Shown: one piece after another, positions 119 to 9,434 of the stretch
Layout of the letters: each line of letters begins with the position of its first letter
How positions within the stretch are numbered: position 1 is the stretch's first letter
NCBI GenBank assembly: GCA_903850545.1
Contig: CAINLW010000017.1
Span: 1-32,918, forward strand
DNA length: 32,918 nucleotides
Source of the DNA: an uncultured bacterium
GTDB lineage: Bacteria; Patescibacteriota; Minisyncoccia; Phycocordibacterales; GWA1-40-21
Direction: 5' to 3'
Translations under genes and position numbers: made by a program
Notes under the pieces: generated by a model
What the model was told of the DNA's origin: nothing
Database searches by the model: none
The model's input: the letters and a program-made list of their open reading frames with translations, nothing else

Positions 119-791
119 CATAGGAACTTAGGCGCGAGTAGCCCTAGCGGAAATGTCCGAGGCGTATGCCGAGGATGGATTTCTTTATTCATGTACTAAA
201 TAGATGGAAGAGGCACAGCTATGGAATTTGTATTTTGAATTTGTCCGCCCCAAATCCCGCAAAAATTTACCCGAGAAAACTTTTGACTGATGGAAAATCA
301 AAGATTTTCCGTGCAGTATGCGTCAGTCAAAACTTTAACGGGTGAAACTGGAATCATCGCCCGCATTCCTTCCCAGACCCTTCCTGCGGGCGAGAGAAAG
401 AGAGAGGTTGAAATTTGGGTAGGGACCCAAATGAAAGACCTTGAACATTTTGTACCCAAAATGTGAAAGGTGTACTGTTCCTGTAAGGAAGGACGAAACC
501 AAATCCCAGAGAAAATGCTCGTCCTGCCGAATCCTTTGTTTAAATTTCTGCATCAGGATTTTGTTCATAATAAGTTCTGACTTTGTCCAAGATTGACCAC
601 AGTGATTAAAAAACTGCGTCTGCACGCGGTTTTTTTATGCACTGTGGAAGCCGCAGCTATATTCCACAAGCTTGTGGAATTGCGAGGCGGGGTCGCGAGT
701 ACTTACGTAGAATTTGAGCAAAGCGAAAAATTATACTTAGTAACTCGTGATACACAAAGTTTTGTGGAACGAAATCGTTGTCGCGGGAGAG

Positions 792-1179: not shown

Positions 1180-3333
1180 ATGAGAGGAATTGATTTTTCT
1201 AAAATTGAAGATCTGGAAAAGTTTGCAAAAATACCTAAAGACGAAAGGGATTCTTTGGTTGATAAAGATAGAATTGAAGCTGAAAAACTAAATATAAAAA
1301 TAGATAAAGAAAAAATCCAATCATTCAAAGATCGTTTACAGGAAATAATACAAAGAAGACCCTCTATCGATATCTCTGGATTTTTTGGAAATATGATGAC
1401 TAGTCTTGTCTCACTTTCAAACGAGATAATAGAGGAATATCAAAGAAAAAATAAATCAAAATGTACAGGAAAAGAACTTGAGGACAAAGCATATAGTTTT
1501 TTTAGTATAGATAGCATAGGTAAGATTTTAGATGATATAAAGGAAAAGATAAGGATCTTAAATGATGCTGATGTATATATAGAACAGAGAATTTTGCATT
1601 CGAATCGTGTTATCACACCTCCTGGTACGCTGTCTGCCGAGATTATTACTGGATCTAGGGCTGGTTTCGAACGAGCAGGTATTACTATTAGATTAAAAAC
1701 GTTATTATATGTTCTCAAAGAAAATGGTACCGAATGGGATAATATAATTACAACTGATGGGATAATGCCAGACAATTCCGTTAGGCAACTTAGTTATTAC
1801 AGTATTATAATCTCTGAATTAAATAGATTTGTTTTAATTTGCGATGAAGAATGGAATGCTAGTTATATTTTTGATTTAAAAAAGGTTACTGATTTAAATA
1901 AGTCTACTGAAGAAGTCGGTGATATGACAAAACAAGAGAAGGATGAGTTTATTATTAACAATCTTGGTATCGGTGTTCGTATCATTGAATCATCTAGATG
2001 GATGGAAAATATAAAACGATGTCTATATCAAGATTTACCAATAAAAGGTGAATCGGAAGAAAATACTAATACACCCCAAGTTGAAAAAGAAGGTGAATGG
2101 AAGGGTTTTTATTTAGATCCAAAAACAAATATGCATTATGGAACAATAGCGGCATTTATTGATTATAAAAAAATTAGTTTAGATAATGCTACGCTTCAAA
2201 AAGCGATAGACAAATTAGTTCCAAAAATTAATTCAATAAAAATAAGAGATATAGTTGGAAGACCTAACGATAACGCGTATCCTTTCGAAGTAGTAATTAA
2301 TACAGAATCTATCAAAGAATTAATAAACACTCCTCAAGTTGAAAAAGCTGGTGAATGGAAAGGTTTCTATTTTGATCCGAAAACAAAGATGCACTATGCA
2401 TCAGTAGGAACGCTATCAAATCATAAAATGATTAATTTGACACGCAGAACAGTTCAAAACATTATAAACACTCAAATTCCAAAAATTAATTCTATAAAAA
2501 CAAGAGACTTGGCTGGAAATTCTGGCGATGCATATCCATTCGAAGTTGTAATCAAAGTAGAATCACTGAAGAAATTAATAGATATTCCTAGAGTTGAGAC
2601 GAAAGGTGAATGGAAGGGTTTCTATTATGATCCAAAAACAAATATACATTATGGAATAACAAAAATATTGGCTCAACATAAAACAATTAATTTAGACAAG
2701 GGCGCGCTTCAAAGAACGATAGATAATTTAGTTCCCAAAATTAATTCAATAAAAATAAGGGATTTAACTGGAAAACCCAAGGATGCTTACCCATTCGAAG
2801 AGATAACGAAGATAGAATCTGTCAAAGAATTAATAAACAGTCCTCAAGTTGAAAAAGAAGGTGAATGGAAGGGTTTCTATTATGATCCAAAAACAGATAT
2901 GCATTATGGAGCAATAGGAACATTTGTTGATTTTAAAAAAATTAATTTGGAAAACACTACACTTCAAAAAATGATAGTTAATTTTATTCCAAAAATTAAT
3001 TCAATAAAAATAAGAGATCTAACTGGAAAACCAGGCGATGCATATCCATTCGAAGATGTAATGAATATAGAATCTATCAAAGAATTAATAAACAGTCCTC
3101 AAGTTGAAAAAGAAGGTGAATGGAAGGGTTTCTATTATGATCCCAAAACAAAGATGCATTATGGAGCAATAGGAACATTTGTTAATACTAAAAAAATTAT
3201 AAAAGATTATTATCTTATTCAAAGAGTTATAAAAGAGACAATCCCTAAGATTATTTCAACAAAAATAAAAGATTTAAGTGGAAAACCTCAAGATGCATAC
3301 CCATTCGAAGAGGTAATCAAAAGATTAAATTAA
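1180..3333 (+). CDS. Protein with five tandem 85-86 residue repeats
   Basis: 717 residues. Residues 1-297 form a unique, mostly helical and charged N-terminal part that I do not recognise. From about residue 298 there are five tandem repeats starting near 298, 384, 469, 554 and 639, the last slightly short. Each unit has a PQVE-x-EGEWKGFYxDPKT segment, a MHYG motif, a stretch resembling helix-turn-helix with TLQ near its middle, a block PKINSIKIRDL, and a closing DAYPFE. There is no signal peptide or membrane segment, so it is probably cytoplasmic. The middle of each unit is compatible with tandem DNA-binding HTH modules, but that is inference only. The start is supported by TAATAT at 1168-1173, six bases before ATG. 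Repeats 4 and 5 are nearly identical in DNA, showing recent expansion. Confidence 0.85.
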   Translation: MRGIDFSKIEDLEKFAKIPKDERDSLVDKDRIEAEKLNIKIDKEKIQSFKDRLQEIIQRRPSIDISGFFGNMMTSLVSLSNEIIEEYQRKNKSKCTGKELEDKAYSFFSIDSIGKILDDIKEKIRILNDADVYIEQRILHSNRVITPPGTLSAEIITGSRAGFERAGITIRLKTLLYVLKENGTEWDNIITTDGIMPDNSVRQLSYYSIIISELNRFVLICDEEWNASYIFDLKKVTDLNKSTEEVGDMTKQEKDEFIINNLGIGVRIIESSRWMENIKRCLYQDLPIKGESEENTNTPQVEKEGEWKGFYLDPKTNMHYGTIAAFIDYKKISLDNATLQKAIDKLVPKINSIKIRDIVGRPNDNAYPFEVVINTESIKELINTPQVEKAGEWKGFYFDPKTKMHYASVGTLSNHKMINLTRRTVQNIINTQIPKINSIKTRDLAGNSGDAYPFEVVIKVESLKKLIDIPRVETKGEWKGFYYDPKTNIHYGITKILAQHKTINLDKGALQRTIDNLVPKINSIKIRDLTGKPKDAYPFEEITKIESVKELINSPQVEKEGEWKGFYYDPKTDMHYGAIGTFVDFKKINLENTTLQKMIVNFIPKINSIKIRDLTGKPGDAYPFEDVMNIESIKELINSPQVEKEGEWKGFYYDPKTKMHYGAIGTFVNTKKIIKDYYLIQRVIKETIPKIISTKIKDLSGKPQDAYPFEEVIKRLN
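2071..3333 (+). repeat. Five in-frame tandem repeats (255-258 nt units)
   Basis: Units begin near 2071, 2329, 2584, 2839 and 3094. The spacing of 258, 255, 255 and 255 nt keeps the frame. The first roughly 90 nt of units 4 and 5 differ at only a few positions, while units 2 and 3 are more divergent. Confidence 0.9.
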
Positions 3334-3439: not shown

Positions 3440-3564
3440 ACTTATATGTGGAAGACGCGGTCATATTCTTGTTTGAGCCGAGCGAAAGGCAAAAATGACG
3501 AGTCGGGGTCGAGAAATTTTTCTGTCAGGAAAAATATTTGTGACCATACAAAATAGTAATCAAT

Positions 3565-3602
3565 ATGACATTCTCACATTCTCAAGAATGTGAGAATGTC
3601 AT
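3565..3602. repeat. Perfect 38-base palindrome of the GAATGT family
   Basis: Arms of 18 bp (3565-3582 and 3585-3602) with a 2-base loop; the arm reads atgacattctcacattct. It shares layout and core with the palindrome at 26256-26291, and related half-sites follow at 3641-3657 and 3765-3780. Confidence 0.9.
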
Positions 3603-3610
3603 TATCTTCA

Positions 3611-3640
3611 TATGGAACCATTCGCGCGAATGGTTCCATA
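3611..3640. repeat. Perfect 30-base palindrome centred on CGCG
   Basis: Arms tatggaaccattcgc and gcgaatggttccata meet with no loop. Its centre, attcgcgcgaat, is also at 1067-1078, and a one-base variant lies in the two direct repeats at 848-874 and 994-1020. Confidence 0.9.
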
Positions 3641-3780
3641 AGAATGTCGGAATGTTATTTGGAAGATGGGTTGAGGATGAGATGTTTTTTAATAATTTTT
3701 TGAAATCACTTCAACATAGAGATGTCATACCAACAAACTGGAGTTTGTTGGTATGAGTTGTGTGAGAATGTCGGAATGTC
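3641..3780. repeat. Half-sites and a 14-bp hairpin of the same repeat field
   Basis: agaatgtcggaatgtta at 3641-3657 is identical to the right arm of the palindrome at 26275-26291. A second copy of 16 bases lies at 3765-3780. Between them, 3726-3755 is a perfect inverted repeat with 14-bp arms (cataccaacaaact) and a GG loop. Confidence 0.85.
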
Positions 3781-3911
3781 AGATCTTGTGCAAAATATGA
3801 AAATTAAAGATTTGCCAAAAGTTGATAGAGAAAAAGGTTTCTGACCCCATTTTTCCCATTTTCATTTTTGCTCTACTGTTTTTTGTTAGTTTTTATGATA
3901 ACATTTATGGT

Positions 3912-4259
3912 GTGAAGAACTTAGATGAATTAACACGTAGAATAATAGCTTTCCGTGATGCTCGCGACTGGAAACAATTTCACAATCCGAAAGATTGTGC
4001 CATTTCGCTATCTCTTGAAGCATCTGAATTACTAGAACATTTTCAATGGAAAAATGCAGAAGAAATGAAGGAGTATATTAAAACTCACAAGGAACATATC
4101 GGTGATGAACTGGCTGATGTTTTGTATTGGGTTCTTTTGATGAGTTACGATTTAAATATAGATATAATTGAAGTTTCAAATAAAAAATTGAAACAAAATA
4201 ATGAAAAATATTCTGTTGAAAAAGCAAAAGGTAAGCATACTAAATATAATAAATTGTAA
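3912..4259 (+). CDS. MazG-like nucleotide pyrophosphohydrolase
   Basis: 115 residues from a GTG start. This all-alpha NTP pyrophosphatase family (MazG-like / RS21-C6 type) removes pyrophosphate from (d)NTPs with Mg2+. The metal-binding carboxylates are visible: LEASELLEHFQW in the first helix pair and DELADVLYWVLL in the second. The opening RDARDWKQFHNPKDCAISLS is typical of the small stand-alone members, which are about 110-120 residues. The frame stays open upstream, but the extra residues would be hydrophobic and lie outside the family. I chose GTG 3912 because TAACAT at 3899-3904 sits 7 nt before it, matching the leaderless pattern of neighbouring genes. It ends 2 nt before the nuclease-helicase gene, so the two are almost certainly co-transcribed. 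Family call is secure; the in vivo substrate is unknown. Confidence 0.85.
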   Translation: MKNLDELTRRIIAFRDARDWKQFHNPKDCAISLSLEASELLEHFQWKNAEEMKEYIKTHKEHIGDELADVLYWVLLMSYDLNIDIIEVSNKKLKQNNEKYSVEKAKGKHTKYNKL

Positions 4260-4261
4260 TT

Positions 4262-6574
4262 ATGATTGTTTACGAATCAACAAAATTGCAATTTTTAAAA
4301 GATGCTTCAAATGGAATTGAGGATATTGTCAGAACCCGTGTAAAAGAAAAATTAAAAATTGATATTCAAGTTGGAAGTAGTGAATATAATTCATGGAAGA
4401 ATTCTTTAGGTGATGCTATGTATAAAGTAATGCAAACCGACAAAATTCCAAATGATTCTGTTGTAGCCATTGAATATTCTATTCCAAGAACAAAAAATCG
4501 AATAGATTTTATTATTACAGGAGAAGATGACGACGGTAAAGAAAAAATAGTTATAATAGAATTAAAACAGTGGACCGACATACAAAAAACAGATAAAGAC
4601 GCCGTAGTAACCACTCGTTTTAAGAGTGGACTTAGTGAAGAATTACACCCATCATATCAAGCGTGGTCATATTCTGCTCTTTTGTATGGATTTAATGCAA
4701 CTGTATATGAAGAAAATATAGGGCTTGAACCATGTGCATATTTACATAATCATATTGATAATGATGTTATTTTAAGTCCATATTATGCGGAGTACTTAGC
4801 AAAAGCACCGGCATTCTGTAAAGGCGACAAAGAAAAACTTCAAGATTTTATCGCGAAGTTTATTAAACATGGCGAAAGAAAAAATACGTTGTTTAGAATT
4901 GATAATGGGGAAATAAGACCTTCAAAAAATCTCGCAGATAGCATGGCCTCTATGATAAAAGGTAATCAAGAGTTTATTATGATAGATGCTCAAAAAATTG
5001 TTTATGAAACTGCACTGGCTTTAACAAGAAAGTCTAGCTGTGACAATAAAAATATACTTGTAGTTGAAGGCGGTCCAGGGACGGGAAAATCTGTCGTGGC
5101 CGTAAACTTACTTGTTGCAATTACAAAACTTGGTTTAAATACCCAATATGTTACAAAAAATGCCGCTCCACGAGCAGTGTTTGAGAGTAAACTTACTGGC
5201 ACACTTAAGAAAACAGAAATTTCAAATATGTTTACTGGTTCAGGTTCTTATATAAATTGTGATTCAAATACTTTTGACTGTCTTCTTGTGGATGAAGCAC
5301 ATAGGCTTAATGAGAAGTCTGGAATGTTTAAAAATCTTGGAGAAAATCAGATTAAAGAAATAATAGCATCTGCTAAGTGTTCAGTGTTTTTTATTGATGA
5401 AGATCAAAAAGTTACTTGGCACGATATTGGAAAAAAAGAAGAAATAGAAAAATGGGCGAATAAAATAGGTGCAAAAGTTTGTTATTTAAAATTAGAGTCA
5501 CAGTTTAGATGTAATGGTTCAGACGGATATCTATCATGGCTTGATAACATATTACAAATAAATGAAACAGCGAATACCACATTAGAGGGTGCAAATTATG
5601 ATTTTAAGATTGTAAGTTCGCCAAACGAACTGAAAGATATGATCTTTAAAAATAATGAGATTAATAATAAAGCGCGTATGGTGGCTGGGTACTGTTGGAA
5701 TTGGGTGAGTAAAAAAGATAAAAACCTAAAAGATATAATAATTCCAGAATATAATTTTGAAATGAAATGGAATCTTTCTGAAGACGGAAATGTTTGGATT
5801 ATTTCGCCAAAATCTGTAAATGAAATCGGATGTATTCATACTTGTCAGGGACTTGAAGTTGATTATATTGGAGTAATTGTTGGGCCTGATTTTATTGTTA
5901 GAGACGGTAGGGTTATAACTGATCCAAGTAAACGTGCTAAAACTGACGCTTCTTTAAAAGGATACAAAACTGATTTTAAAAATAATCCAAAGGAATCCTT
6001 TGAGAAAGCGGACAAAATTATAAAAAATACATATCGAACTCTTATGACCCGTGGAATGAAAGGGTGTTATGTTTATTTTACTGACAAGGAAACAGAAAAA
6101 TATTTTAAAAGTATGACAGGAAATGAAAACTTGATAAAAAAAGAAACAAAAACAATTATAGAAAAAATTATCTCTCCTTATTCTGGGGTTATGATTAATG
6201 TTCCTATGTTCGAATCTGTTGGTTGCGGACCTGCAATGTTTGCCGAAACAATTTCCGAAGAAATGATTCCAGTCAGAAGGGACTATTTTTCTAGTGGATC
6301 AAAATATTTTGTTTTGAAAGTATCTGGAGACTCTATGAACAAAGCTGGAATAAATGATGGAGATTTAGTTTTGTGTGTAAAGAATTATCAACCAAGTGAA
6401 GGAAAAAGGGTTGTAGCTCTTATTGGTGATGATGCCACTATAAAGGAATATCATATAGAAAAAGATCAAATTATTTTGAAGCCTTGTTCAACCAATCCAA
6501 CACATAAACCACTAGTATTTAATGAAGATATAAAAATTCAAGGTATTGTTGTGAGGGTATTGGAGAAAAATTAA
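4262..6574 (+). CDS. Nuclease-helicase (DUF2075/Schlafen-like) fused to an S24 LexA/UmuD-type domain
   Basis: 770 residues in three parts. Residues about 1-200 resemble a PD-(D/E)XK nuclease: D82 in RIDFII, then E100 and K102 in VIIELKQW. Residues about 260-620 form an SF1-like DUF2075 helicase with Walker A GGPGTGKS (270-277), Walker B LLVDEAH (341-347), an SQFR motif (413-416), a TCQGLEVD motif (527-534) and a motif VI-like YRTLMTRG (591-598). Residues about 645-770 form a peptidase S24 domain with the nucleophile S691 in SGDSM and the lysine K728 in DDATIKEY. A Cys-Gly pair, C655-G656 in VGCGPAMFAE, stands where LexA (Ala-Gly) and UmuD (Cys-Gly) cleave themselves. The enzyme may therefore be switched or released by autocleavage, as in a DNA-damage or phage response; this is inference. 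It follows the MazG-like gene by 2 nt. There is no HTH, so it is not a LexA repressor. Confidence 0.85.
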   Translation: MIVYESTKLQFLKDASNGIEDIVRTRVKEKLKIDIQVGSSEYNSWKNSLGDAMYKVMQTDKIPNDSVVAIEYSIPRTKNRIDFIITGEDDDGKEKIVIIELKQWTDIQKTDKDAVVTTRFKSGLSEELHPSYQAWSYSALLYGFNATVYEENIGLEPCAYLHNHIDNDVILSPYYAEYLAKAPAFCKGDKEKLQDFIAKFIKHGERKNTLFRIDNGEIRPSKNLADSMASMIKGNQEFIMIDAQKIVYETALALTRKSSCDNKNILVVEGGPGTGKSVVAVNLLVAITKLGLNTQYVTKNAAPRAVFESKLTGTLKKTEISNMFTGSGSYINCDSNTFDCLLVDEAHRLNEKSGMFKNLGENQIKEIIASAKCSVFFIDEDQKVTWHDIGKKEEIEKWANKIGAKVCYLKLESQFRCNGSDGYLSWLDNILQINETANTTLEGANYDFKIVSSPNELKDMIFKNNEINNKARMVAGYCWNWVSKKDKNLKDIIIPEYNFEMKWNLSEDGNVWIISPKSVNEIGCIHTCQGLEVDYIGVIVGPDFIVRDGRVITDPSKRAKTDASLKGYKTDFKNNPKESFEKADKIIKNTYRTLMTRGMKGCYVYFTDKETEKYFKSMTGNENLIKKETKTIIEKIISPYSGVMINVPMFESVGCGPAMFAETISEEMIPVRRDYFSSGSKYFVLKVSGDSMNKAGINDGDLVLCVKNYQPSEGKRVVALIGDDATIKEYHIEKDQIILKPCSTNPTHKPLVFNEDIKIQGIVVRVLEKN

Positions 6575-6657
6575 ATTAGCCTATATCACTTTGTTTCTCG
6601 CAAAAATACTCCTGAGTCTGTGGTTAACTTAAAATTGTTAATAGTATTAGTTACTAA

Positions 6658-6686
6658 TTGTTTTGATATTGTTTATATTATATAAT
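6658..6686 (+). promoter_or_regulatory. Sigma70-type promoter
   Basis: TTGTTT at 6658-6663, a 17-nt spacer, then TATAAT at 6681-6686. The start codon of the next gene is at 6696, nine bases after the -10 box, leaving almost no 5' leader. Confidence 0.75.
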
Positions 6687-6695
6687 AAAAACAAT

Positions 6696-6911
6696 ATGAA
6701 AATATTATCACAAATTGTAGGAGTAATTGTGCTTATAATCGTTATTTATTGGTTTGTTTTCGTCGCACCACAAAGGAAAGAGTGTATTAATAGGGCGTCA
6801 CAAAATTTATCAAACGCAACCACTAACTACCAAGAGGGTCTGATTGACGTAAATGCATATAAAATTGCACAGAATATGTTCGATGTGCAAAATAAGGCGT
6901 GTTTTAAATAA
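6696..6911 (+). CDS. Small single-pass membrane protein
   Basis: 71 residues. Residues about 5-23 form one strongly hydrophobic helix (IVGVIVLIIVIYWFVFVAP), followed by a polar helical tail with two cysteines (C29, C69) that is probably outside the membrane or periplasm-facing. I do not recognise a family. ATG 6696 is preferred over the upstream in-frame codon because a good promoter ends ten bases before it. It stands alone between the nuclease-helicase and the protease. It could be a regulator or toxin-like peptide of the island, but nothing in the sequence proves that. Confidence 0.6.
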   Translation: MKILSQIVGVIVLIIVIYWFVFVAPQRKECINRASQNLSNATTNYQEGLIDVNAYKIAQNMFDVQNKACFK

Positions 6912-7010
6912 ACTTTACTGCTCGAGTCGAGTTGTTTTAGTATACTGGAAAAAGGGTTATGGTTTTTACAAGATAAGAAATTTAATAAATTAATAAAATA
7001 AACTAAATTT

Positions 7011-7070
7011 ATGACACAAATGATTTTGATAATTATTGGAATAGTGATTATTGTTCTTTTACGAACATAA
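7011..7070 (+). CDS. Putative 19-residue hydrophobic peptide before the protease
   Basis: ATG 7011 to TAA 7068-7070 encodes a 19-residue peptide of one hydrophobic run (MILIIIGIVIIVLL) ending in Arg-Thr. Its stop overlaps the leader of the protease gene, whose Shine-Dalgarno box begins at the next base. It could be a membrane micropeptide, a translated leader coupling translation to the protease, or the remnant of a membrane anchor once fused to the protease (the frames differ by one base). Expression is not shown. Confidence 0.35.
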   Translation: MTQMILIIIGIVIIVLLRT

Positions 7071-7077
7071 AGAGGAG
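7071..7077 (+). promoter_or_regulatory. Strong Shine-Dalgarno site fixing the protease start
   Basis: agaggag lies nine bases before ATG 7087 and directly after the stop codon of the small ORF. A strong SD is uncommon among the genes of this window, many of which appear leaderless. It favours ATG 7087 over the TTG at 7051. Confidence 0.7.
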
Positions 7078-7086
7078 AAACATGTT

Positions 7087-7695
7087 ATGAATGAAAAAGT
7101 TTGGATGGTTTTACGACCTAATTATGTAAACGGCACATTAAAAGACATAGGTCTTTGTGGCGCTGGATTTTTAATTAATTCAAATACTTTTATAACAGCT
7201 TACCACTGTTGCAATGAGTCTTGTTTTGTGCCGAAGGAAAATTATAATAATAACTTACTGATACTTTTACCTCCAGGAAAACAGGGATTGAAAATAAATA
7301 TAAATGAGTGTATATTTTGTAAAAATAAAGATATTACATTTATAAAACTAGATAGTAATTTCGATTATATAAAAAAATCCAAACCAGTAGAGGGAGAAAA
7401 AGTTTACAATATTGGATATATATCAGCTAAAATTGAAAGATACGTTAATAATAAATTGGAAATAAATTCGCAAGATAAAAGAAATGGGAGTGTTATAGAA
7501 AAATGTGATAACTATTCTATTTCCGCTCCCGATGTCTCCATAAATAATGTAAAAATTATTAAGTTAGATTATTCATGTGAGGTTGGTTTTAGTGGCGGCC
7601 CCTTATTAAACAACAGAAATGAAGTAATTGGACTAATGTCTCACAAAGATAAAAGTACTGGCAATGTGATTGCTATAAGTAGTGAGGAATTCTAA
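7087..7695 (+). CDS. Trypsin-like serine protease (S1/PA clan)
   Basis: 202 residues. The catalytic triad is visible in order: H40 in FITAYHCC, D82 in KNKDITFIKL, and S169 in VGFSGGPLL. Further signs of the chymotrypsin fold are the opening GAGFLINSN strand pair and the closing NEVIGLMSHK strand after the nucleophile. It is short, about one protease domain, with no PDZ domain and no signal peptide or membrane helix of its own, so as written it would act in the cytoplasm. Proteins of this size and fold occur as effectors in bacterial conflict systems, and its place between the nuclease-helicase and Fic genes fits that, but it may equally be a housekeeping protease. Several cysteines (C24, C41, C42, C46) are notable for a cytoplasmic protein. 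Confidence 0.8.
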   Translation: MNEKVWMVLRPNYVNGTLKDIGLCGAGFLINSNTFITAYHCCNESCFVPKENYNNNLLILLPPGKQGLKININECIFCKNKDITFIKLDSNFDYIKKSKPVEGEKVYNIGYISAKIERYVNNKLEINSQDKRNGSVIEKCDNYSISAPDVSINNVKIIKLDYSCEVGFSGGPLLNNRNEVIGLMSHKDKSTGNVIAISSEEF

Positions 7696-7751
7696 TTGCT
7701 TGAGAAGCGTCGAAAATAGTTAGCAACAATAGTTTTTTCGAGATAACATGT

Positions 7752-7757
7752 TAAAAT
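7752..7757 (+). promoter_or_regulatory. -10 box of a leaderless promoter
   Basis: TAAAAT at 7752-7757 lies exactly six bases before ATG 7764, the same spacing seen at many other genes in this window. No clear -35 element is seen. Confidence 0.55.
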
Positions 7758-7763
7758 ATATTT

Positions 7764-8075
7764 ATGTCTGACAACCAAATACAAACAACCGATGAGATGA
7801 AGCCCGAGGAGTTACCCGTCAAAAGTAATAACTTTTCATCGGGCAGGTCTCCGGCTACTGAAATACCGAACTTTGCACCTATTGACCAAACTATTTCCAC
7901 AACAGATTTCACACCCTCCGACATGCCGTCTGAGCCCCAAAACGGCTCACAGGACGCTTTTACTACGTCGTCTAACGAAGATTCCTCCGTCGCTTCCACC
8001 TTCGCTGAAGCTATGGGGGACAGGAAAGCTATGGAGGACAAGCAAAATGGAGCAGAATTTGCAGAAGAATTGTAA
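7764..8075 (+). CDS. Low-complexity protein, truncated paralogue of the 9527 gene
   Basis: 103 residues, rich in Ser, Thr, Pro, Asn and acidic residues, probably disordered. The segment TPSDMPSEPQNGSQDAFTT is nearly the same as in the protein at 9527-10201, and DNA 7911-7990 matches 9629-9708 almost base for base. It lacks the winged helix that ends the larger paralogue; its frame stops and runs straight into a terminator. A short internal duplication (gctatgg repeated around 8009 and 8028) suggests ongoing decay. The promoter is intact, so it may still be expressed. I read it as a truncated copy, possibly a pseudogene. The hairpin-forming segment around 7805-7847 is also inside the coding region. 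Confidence 0.5.
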   Translation: MSDNQIQTTDEMKPEELPVKSNNFSSGRSPATEIPNFAPIDQTISTTDFTPSDMPSEPQNGSQDAFTTSSNEDSSVASTFAEAMGDRKAMEDKQNGAEFAEEL

Positions 8076-8288: not shown

Positions 8289-9434
8289 ATGAAAAACATA
8301 ATAGGAACAGTAAAAAATCATCCAAAGGGCTATAATTATTTATCTCTTTTTCCGTTTCCATCAGAAGAGATAAGAAAAGCCACCTCTGTTGATTTAATAC
8401 AAAAATCCAATTATGCCCAGTTCTTGCTAGGCAAACTTTCTGGTATCACTGTGTTACTGCCTGACGTTGACTATTTCATTAGCTCATACGTTATGAAAGA
8501 CGCTTCTTCTTCATCACAAATTGAGGGTACAAAAGCGACGATGATTGATGCCCTTGAATACGCCGCTGATCCAGTAAATAAAGACGATACAGATGCTGAT
8601 GACATTTCACATTATATTGAAGCTTTGAATTATGGTCTTAAAAAATTAAAAGAAGACGATTTTCCATTTGTGCTTAGATTTATTAAGGAATTGCACAAGA
8701 AACTTATGCACAAAGCTCGCAAGACTCATTTTGCTGATCCTGGAGAGTTCAGAACAACACAAAACTGGATTGGAGGAACACGACCAGATAATGCAAGTTT
8801 TGTACCACCCGCACCAGAAGAAATGATAGAGCCCCTTCGTGATATGGAAAAGTTTATGCACACGCCAATGATTCACCCTATCATTGATGCTGGTTTACTT
8901 CATGCACAATTTGAAACAATCCACCCATTTTTGGATGGAAATGGACGTACAGGTAGACTCTTGATAACTTTCTATTTAATTCATCACAAATACTTAGAAC
9001 TTCCGGCATTGTTTCTTTCCTCATATTTTAAAAAGCATCAAAAGGTCTACTATCAGAGACTAAATGAATATCACAATGGAGATATAGCCCCATGGCTTGA
9101 ATTTTTTGTGGATGCTATAACAGAAACGGCACAAGAAGCTATAGAGATATCAAAGAAAATAACAAAATTAAGAGATAGAGACTTATCTATAATTTCTAAA
9201 TTAAGTAAAAAGACCTCTGATATAGCGCTAGGAGTTGTTCAAAGATTATATAAGGACCCTATTGTTTCCTCTACAACTATTCAGGAATGGGTAGGGCAGA
9301 CGAAACCAGGTGCTCTTAAATTTATCGATAAGCTTGTACAGGCAGATATACTTTCTTTGCACAGAAAAGGTGAAGGGACCCGCCCTTCTTTATATGCACA
9401 CAAGGAATACATAAAAATTTTTGCTGAAAAATAA
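8289..9434 (+). CDS. Fic family AMP-transferase with intramolecular inhibitory motif
   Basis: 381 residues. Fic enzymes transfer AMP (or other nucleotide parts) to a hydroxyl group on a target protein. The active-site signature HPFLDGNGRTGR is at 212-223. An inhibitory helix motif of the (S/T)xxxE(G/N) type is present near the N-terminus as S75-SQI-E79-G80, which places it in the class with internal (class II) autoinhibition. The order is an N-terminal Fic_N-like region, the Fic core (about 105-285), and a C-terminal winged-helix-like part (about 300-370) ending in a wing RKGEGTRPSLY. Length is normal for this subfamily. A separate small antitoxin is not needed and none is seen. The promoter region has inverted GTTTAC repeats. 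The target is unknown. Confidence 0.9.
   Translation: MKNIIGTVKNHPKGYNYLSLFPFPSEEIRKATSVDLIQKSNYAQFLLGKLSGITVLLPDVDYFISSYVMKDASSSSQIEGTKATMIDALEYAADPVNKDDTDADDISHYIEALNYGLKKLKEDDFPFVLRFIKELHKKLMHKARKTHFADPGEFRTTQNWIGGTRPDNASFVPPAPEEMIEPLRDMEKFMHTPMIHPIIDAGLLHAQFETIHPFLDGNGRTGRLLITFYLIHHKYLELPALFLSSYFKKHQKVYYQRLNEYHNGDIAPWLEFFVDAITETAQEAIEISKKITKLRDRDLSIISKLSKKTSDIALGVVQRLYKDPIVSSTTIQEWVGQTKPGALKFIDKLVQADILSLHRKGEGTRPSLYAHKEYIKIFAEK

Follow-up and report, generated by a model that had tools for sequence, protein, structure and literature searches.

A MazG-linked nuclease-helicase of Patescibacteria with a LexA-type S24 tail: a possible RecA-responsive switch on a probable defence enzyme

Proteins of peptidase family S24, such as LexA, UmuD and CI, cleave themselves, a reaction for which RecA is known as the trigger. 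Among nuclease-helicase defences, Nhi is thought to respond to the phage single-stranded DNA-binding protein (SSB) (PMC12904381), and Hachiman (HamAB) is called a genome-integrity sensor (PMC12278908). The AbpAB defence responds to phage SSB or to damage in the host's DNA and is reported to be independent of both RecA and LexA (PMC10732053). Here, we describe a gene in a 32,918-nucleotide stretch of an uncultured patescibacterium (contig CAINLW010000017.1, assembly GCA_903850545.1; hereafter the window), whose 770-residue product joins a PD-(D/E)XK-like nuclease and a superfamily 1 (SF1) helicase of the SLFN-g3 type (former DUF2075) to a C-terminal S24 domain, and which follows a gene for a MazG-like pyrophosphohydrolase after a gap of 2 bp.

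The tail of the window protein shares with LexA, UmuD and CI the fold, the Ser-Lys dyad, the scissile X-Gly bond and the spacing of these elements, but it forms the C-terminal end of a nuclease-helicase, with no helix-turn-helix (HTH) domain and no UmuC partner. A Pfam scan of the protein found no HTH family that could correspond to the winged HTH of a LexA repressor, and the NCBIfam equivalog cut-offs were not reached for LexA (82.3 bits, cut-off 110.95) or for UmuD (57.3 bits, cut-off 110), a short protein with a UmuC partner, where the window protein has 770 residues and a MazG partner. A nuclease joined to an SF1 helicase is shared with Nhi and other single-gene nuclease-helicase defences, and the helicase part weakly and partially matches the PADLOC models of Nhi, AbiO and PDC-S41 (E values from 1e-10 to 6e-15); the match to Nhi spans positions 198-343 of 470 (E=1.2e-10), short of a full-length Nhi, and neither a MazG partner nor an S24 tail is among the parts of these models. 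Hachiman, in contrast, consists of two separate proteins and is released by helicase action, not by proteolysis, while AbpAB, for which no S24 domain is mentioned in PMC10732053, resembles the window system in being tied to DNA damage as a trigger, a trigger that is proposed in our case. We found no description of the fusion architecture in the open-access literature, a scope outside which most subscription journals and bioRxiv preprints lie: nothing there joins DUF2075 with MazG, DUF2075 with S24 and a helicase, DUF3427 with LexA, or a fused peptidase S24 and helicase with defence systems. So far as this literature goes, the remark of a preliminary description of the locus that no characterised system carries such a fusion still stands. 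The parts are of known kinds; the way they are combined, the return of this combination in different phyla and the exchange between nuclease types appear to be undescribed.

The Peptidase_S24 match covers residues 649-764 (Pfam, E=4.4e-24). In phmmer alignments, the mutated catalytic serine of Mycobacterium tuberculosis LexA S160A (6a2s) falls on S691 and the catalytic lysine of LexA 6a2q falls on K728. G656 and S691 lie 35 residues apart, and S691 and K728 lie 37 apart, spacings equal to those of UmuD, where the corresponding residues are G25, S60 and K97. An AlphaFold2 model of the protein, built on the homolog alignment, has a mean predicted local distance difference test (pLDDT) score of 84.8 and two low-confidence segments, residues 622-641 and residues 656-665, the latter just past the predicted scissile bond. 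Foldseek matches the tail of this model to the LexA catalytic domains 1jhe, 8gms and 6a2q with target-normalised template modelling (TM) scores of 0.81-0.84, the RecA-bound LexA 8gms scoring 0.82. The fold returned is that of LexA, as the preliminary description had predicted. It had also set C655-G656 at the place where LexA and UmuD are cut; the equal spacing bears out the position, but not the use of the pair as a UmuD signature, since LexA proteins of the same phylum also have Cys-Gly, and the UmuD-specific origin that the pair might suggest is rejected on that ground. Among 29 fused homologs, for which column conservation averages 0.57, the serine is kept in all, the lysine in 28 and the P1' glycine in 26; the serine is the most conserved column and the lysine is within the top four. 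One homolog (L030) retains the domain, but has lost both the lysine and the scissile glycine, and looks like a decaying copy. It is well supported by these alignments that the predicted self-cleavage chemistry of the tail is intact and selected for.

The body of the protein matches the SLFN-g3_helicase profile over its full length (1-354 of 354; 357 bits, cut-off 24), and its Walker A and DEAH residues are invariant in the homolog alignment. In Pfam, the nuclease start yields a sub-threshold NERD match alone (E=0.033). D82, E100, K102 and Q133 are invariant across 53 homologs, and in the model, which has beta strands at 67-73, 80-88 and 94-102, D82 lies on the second of these and E100 and K102 on the third, the arrangement of D...(D/E)XK residues on core strands that defines PD-(D/E)XK nucleases. 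Foldseek returns RecD2 as a neighbour of the body and human SLFN11 for a portion of its length. The open reading frame (ORF) and all the residues singled out beforehand (D82, E100, K102, C655-G656, S691 and K728) are where they had been placed, and the three-part make-up is well supported.

A scan of a genome collection gave 80 homologous loci, 81 with that of the window, of which 79 encoded alignable proteins. The S24 tail is present on 29 of the 79. Their records name seven phyla or more, with another six rows for which no phylum is given, and fused versions exist in the named isolates Geobacter sp. OR-1, Geomobilimonas luticola and Geomesophilobacter sediminis; a Halomonas PA16-9 copy, with its S24 in another frame, was left out of this count. 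Here the preliminary description needs correcting, for the fusion is not unique: many phyla have this architecture, whose S24 module is exchangeable and whose MazG partner is conserved, and a single freak fusion or an assembly join is ruled out by the number of genomes with fused homologs. The remaining 50 have no S24; they stop at the start of the linker, a median of 15 residues after D608, and retain all motifs. As these enzymes end so soon past the helicase, the S24 tail is an addition to an enzyme that was already complete, and the N-terminal product of a cut at the predicted bond would correspond to such an enzyme. A separate S24 gene beside S24-less homologs is generally absent; the exceptions are S24 domains on other nuclease-helicases (L045, L074) and a LexA gene beside an interrupted copy (L060). 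The first two of these exceptions are a PLD-DEAD-DUF3427-S24 protein, similar to type IV restriction enzymes and encoded immediately downstream of a family member without S24 (L045:10247-13708, + strand), and a UvrD-HSDR_N protein with a C-terminal S24 (L074:15246-17708, + strand). On the tree of the nuclease-helicase part, the distribution of the tail needs eight gains or losses, at least four of them forced by starred branches. A MazG-like gene adjoins the nuclease-helicase in 73 of the 81 loci, and does so for fused (26/29) and other (47/52) members.

Two S24 subtypes can be told apart by their Ser-Lys spacing, which is 37-38 in the window protein and its relatives from the candidate phyla radiation (CPR) and 43-45 elsewhere; in an Omnitrophota copy (L005), a second-subtype tail follows a core that belongs to the first group and is 64% identical to that of the window. 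The tail seen in the window protein also occurs on a helicase of the SLFN-g3 type with a GIY-YIG nuclease, again next to MazG, in other genomes of the genus, family and order of the window (L109, L110, L175, L176, L177 and L180); L179 is a partial further case, with no MazG match in the stretch fetched. The S24 of the window protein is 70% identical to that of the GIY-YIG enzyme L109, with 29% identity over the remainder, while the values against its PD-(D/E)XK sister L002 are 46% and 80%; L002 and the GIY-YIG enzyme L113 share 77% and 31%. In the S24 tree, 27 LexA proteins from the phylum fall outside the group of effector tails, with support (87/78) that is not decisive, and the tails of the two nuclease types are intermixed. 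The approximately unbiased test rejects a grouping of all PD-(D/E)XK tails in one clade (p=1.9e-92), and with it strict co-descent of the S24 with its enzyme. These identities and the mixed tree indicate that the tail, or equally the part before it, has been exchanged as a module. In Patescibacteria, enzymes of both the PD-(D/E)XK and the GIY-YIG type, each paired with MazG, carry the same S24 lineage.

The reading that we favour, and to which we would give as much belief as doubt, is that self-cleavage triggered by RecA on single-stranded DNA (ssDNA) frees a complete nuclease-helicase, the cut being an on-switch in a two-gene anti-phage or anti-plasmid cassette. The pairing of a MazG-like pyrophosphohydrolase with a nuclease-helicase probably serves such a defence. 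In this branch of the family, an S24 of LexA lineage, joined through a flexible linker, would act as a built-in damage switch. When ssDNA builds up, through phage or plasmid replication, the processing of foreign DNA or chromosomal breaks, RecA would polymerise on it, and the filament would dock on the S24 domain and stimulate the attack of S691, with K728 as the base, on the C655-G656 bond. The 115-residue tail would be released, leaving a fragment of 655 residues that matches the complete S24-less enzymes of the family. RecA-triggered cleavage can be soundly inferred from the retained dyad and scissile glycine, the RecA encoded in the host and the fact that this is the only S24 detectable there. 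Cleavage is more likely to arm the enzyme than to disarm it, given that a cut at 655/656 would leave a protein close to the extent of the S24-less members. Its partner MazG would probably deprive the invader of nucleotides, or of a nucleotide signal, that it needs. A broader formulation, towards which we are somewhat more sceptical, is that of an immune effector under direct post-translational control by RecA, in which an S24 lifted off a LexA-type protein serves as an exchangeable switch for MazG-linked PD-(D/E)XK and GIY-YIG nuclease-helicases, so that RecA filaments, formed on damaged or invading DNA, would free the nuclease with no transcription involved, LexA-less cells included.

The anti-invader role is favoured by RhuM (7) and Fic (7) proteins among 110 sampled neighbours near fused loci and by plasmid and phage-record copies, although the neighbour counts, which have no matched control beside them, are suggestive only. 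Against the favoured reading, MazG could equally serve nucleotide housekeeping, and the predicted N-terminal fragment of second-subtype proteins would often end in -AA, like that of LexA, which fits an off-switch. The LexA fragment with this ending is cleared by ClpXP, LexA and CI are inactivated by cleavage, and DNA damage alleviates restriction in Escherichia coli. These facts, together with the repeated fusion of LexA-S24 to DNA methyltransferases in the same order, speak for the main rival, an off-switch of the restriction-alleviation type: the full-length protein would be the active defence enzyme, and RecA-triggered removal of S24 after damage to the cell's own DNA would inactivate it or lead to its degradation, sparing the chromosome. 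We consider this rather unlikely, since S24-less homologs of the fragment's extent are common and keep all motifs, so that loss of S24 need not inactivate, and the fragment of the window protein would end in -GC, not -AA.

The S24 domains of LexA and UmuD dimerise, and the tail might be retained only as a platform for dimerisation or docking, without being cut in the cell, as L030 could suggest; yet a mere platform has no need of a dyad, and the serine, lysine and P1' glycine are conserved well over the column mean, which makes this improbable, L030 having the look of decay. Cleavage by the same chemistry but without RecA, with SSB or another phage protein as the signal, or else ssDNA that the attached helicase has bound, would run counter to the established role of RecA as the trigger of S24 and to its presence in the host; we give it little credence, even if the effector has its own DNA-binding motor and Nhi, Hachiman and Eco8 are all thought to respond to phage SSBs (PMC12904381). 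A role in DNA repair, as a damage-regulated nuclease-helicase with a nucleotide-pool cleaner, would suit the MazG partner, the RecA-linked domain and a helicase fold near RecD2, but it is hardly to be expected of a gene with so patchy a distribution (a near full-length fused match in 2 of 197 genomes of the order, that of the window and G529), with swapped nucleases, with RhuM and Fic neighbours and with plasmid and phage-record copies, one of them beside a restriction-modification system.

The host genome (985 kb, 97% complete) encodes RecA, and no S24 protein other than that of the window is detectable in it; hence, no LexA was found there, whereas most sampled relatives carry a LexA-like protein. 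If the favoured reading is right, RecA, the SOS sensor, would directly control an anti-invader nuclease by proteolysis, and S24 self-cleavage would gain a role in effector control beside its roles in repressors and UmuD. It would also suggest how a promiscuous nuclease-helicase is kept quiet as long as the cell is healthy, and would be a case of damage sensing at work in a small CPR genome where no LexA was found. The apparent swapping of the S24 tail among related enzymes points to a probable defence enzyme that is coupled directly to the DNA-damage alarm.

Table 1. Features of the MazG/nuclease-helicase-S24 cassette, in window coordinates
Feature	Position	Strand	Basis
MazG-like nucleoside triphosphate (NTP) pyrophosphohydrolase gene	3912..4259	+	GTG start at 3912; PF12643 MazG-like E=2.5e-16
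Fusion protein (770 aa) of PD-(D/E)XK nuclease, SLFN-g3 helicase and S24 domain	4262..6574	+	ORF translation, Pfam, alignment, AlphaFold2 model
PD-(D/E)XK-like nuclease region (residues ~40-185)	4379..4816	+	Invariant catalytic residues (53 homologs), model strands, weak NERD match
D82, predicted nuclease catalytic residue	4505-4507	+	
E100, predicted nuclease catalytic residue	4559-4561	+	
K102, predicted nuclease catalytic residue	4565-4567	+	
SLFN-g3 (former DUF2075) SF1 helicase, residues 263-608	5048..6085	+	PF09848 E=1.4e-106; RecD2 and SLFN11 as fold neighbours
Helicase motifs: Walker A G270-S277; DEAH 344-347			
Flexible linker, residues 622-641	6125..6184	+	pLDDT <50; position where S24-less homologs end
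LexA/UmuD-type S24 domain, predicted self-cleaving, residues 643-770	6188..6571	+	PF00717 E=4.4e-24; LexA fold TM 0.83
Predicted scissile bond C655-G656	6224..6229	+	Alignment and spacing; flexible segment 656-665 in model
S691, predicted catalytic serine	6332..6334	+	Aligns with LexA S160 of 6a2s; 29/29 fused homologs
K728, predicted catalytic lysine	6443..6445	+	Aligns with LexA Lys of 6a2q; 28/29 fused homologs

A 22-kb record named as a phage, Microcystis phage Mwe-JY31 (PP438423.1, L143), carries at 5657-7863 a MazG and S24-less nuclease-helicase pair with 46% and 60% identity, both members being annotated merely as hypothetical; a scan of the viral_contigs set with the window protein gave no match. 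In the genus of the window, a second SLFN-g3 helicase without S24 lies directly upstream of a MazG/GIY-YIG/S24 pair (L109:1437-3422, + strand). LexA-like proteins (HTH and S24) with DNA methyltransferases at their C-terminus are common in the family and order of the window (L084, L085, L103, L094, L086, L156, L157, L163, L165 and L167-L173), the methyltransferases being of several kinds, with C5 and N4/N6 motifs recognised by eye. About 30 S24 matches in the order fall in open frames that are 420-909 aa long. It may be common among these bacteria that modification enzymes come under damage-linked control. In five further loci (L159, L160, L161, L162 and L155), LexA-S24 is joined to a different enzyme that also recurs (DYSWDYRGEKTKTYTHGIHTYPAMFIPQ...DIFCGSG) and is probably one more kind of methyltransferase.

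Within the window, the cassette is followed by genes for a trypsin-like protease (7051-7695), like the protease part of the RT-Protease_XI models, and a SoFic-type Fic protein (8289-9434). The stretch upstream of it (3563-3784) holds short perfect or near-perfect palindromes, almost loopless, at 3565-3602, 3607-3644 and 3725-3756, together with a repeated GACATTCTCACA motif. Further upstream, the 717-aa product of positions 1180-3333 repeats a unit of some 70 residues (EWKGFY.DPKT..HY...) about five times in tandem; Pfam gave no convincing match for this protein.
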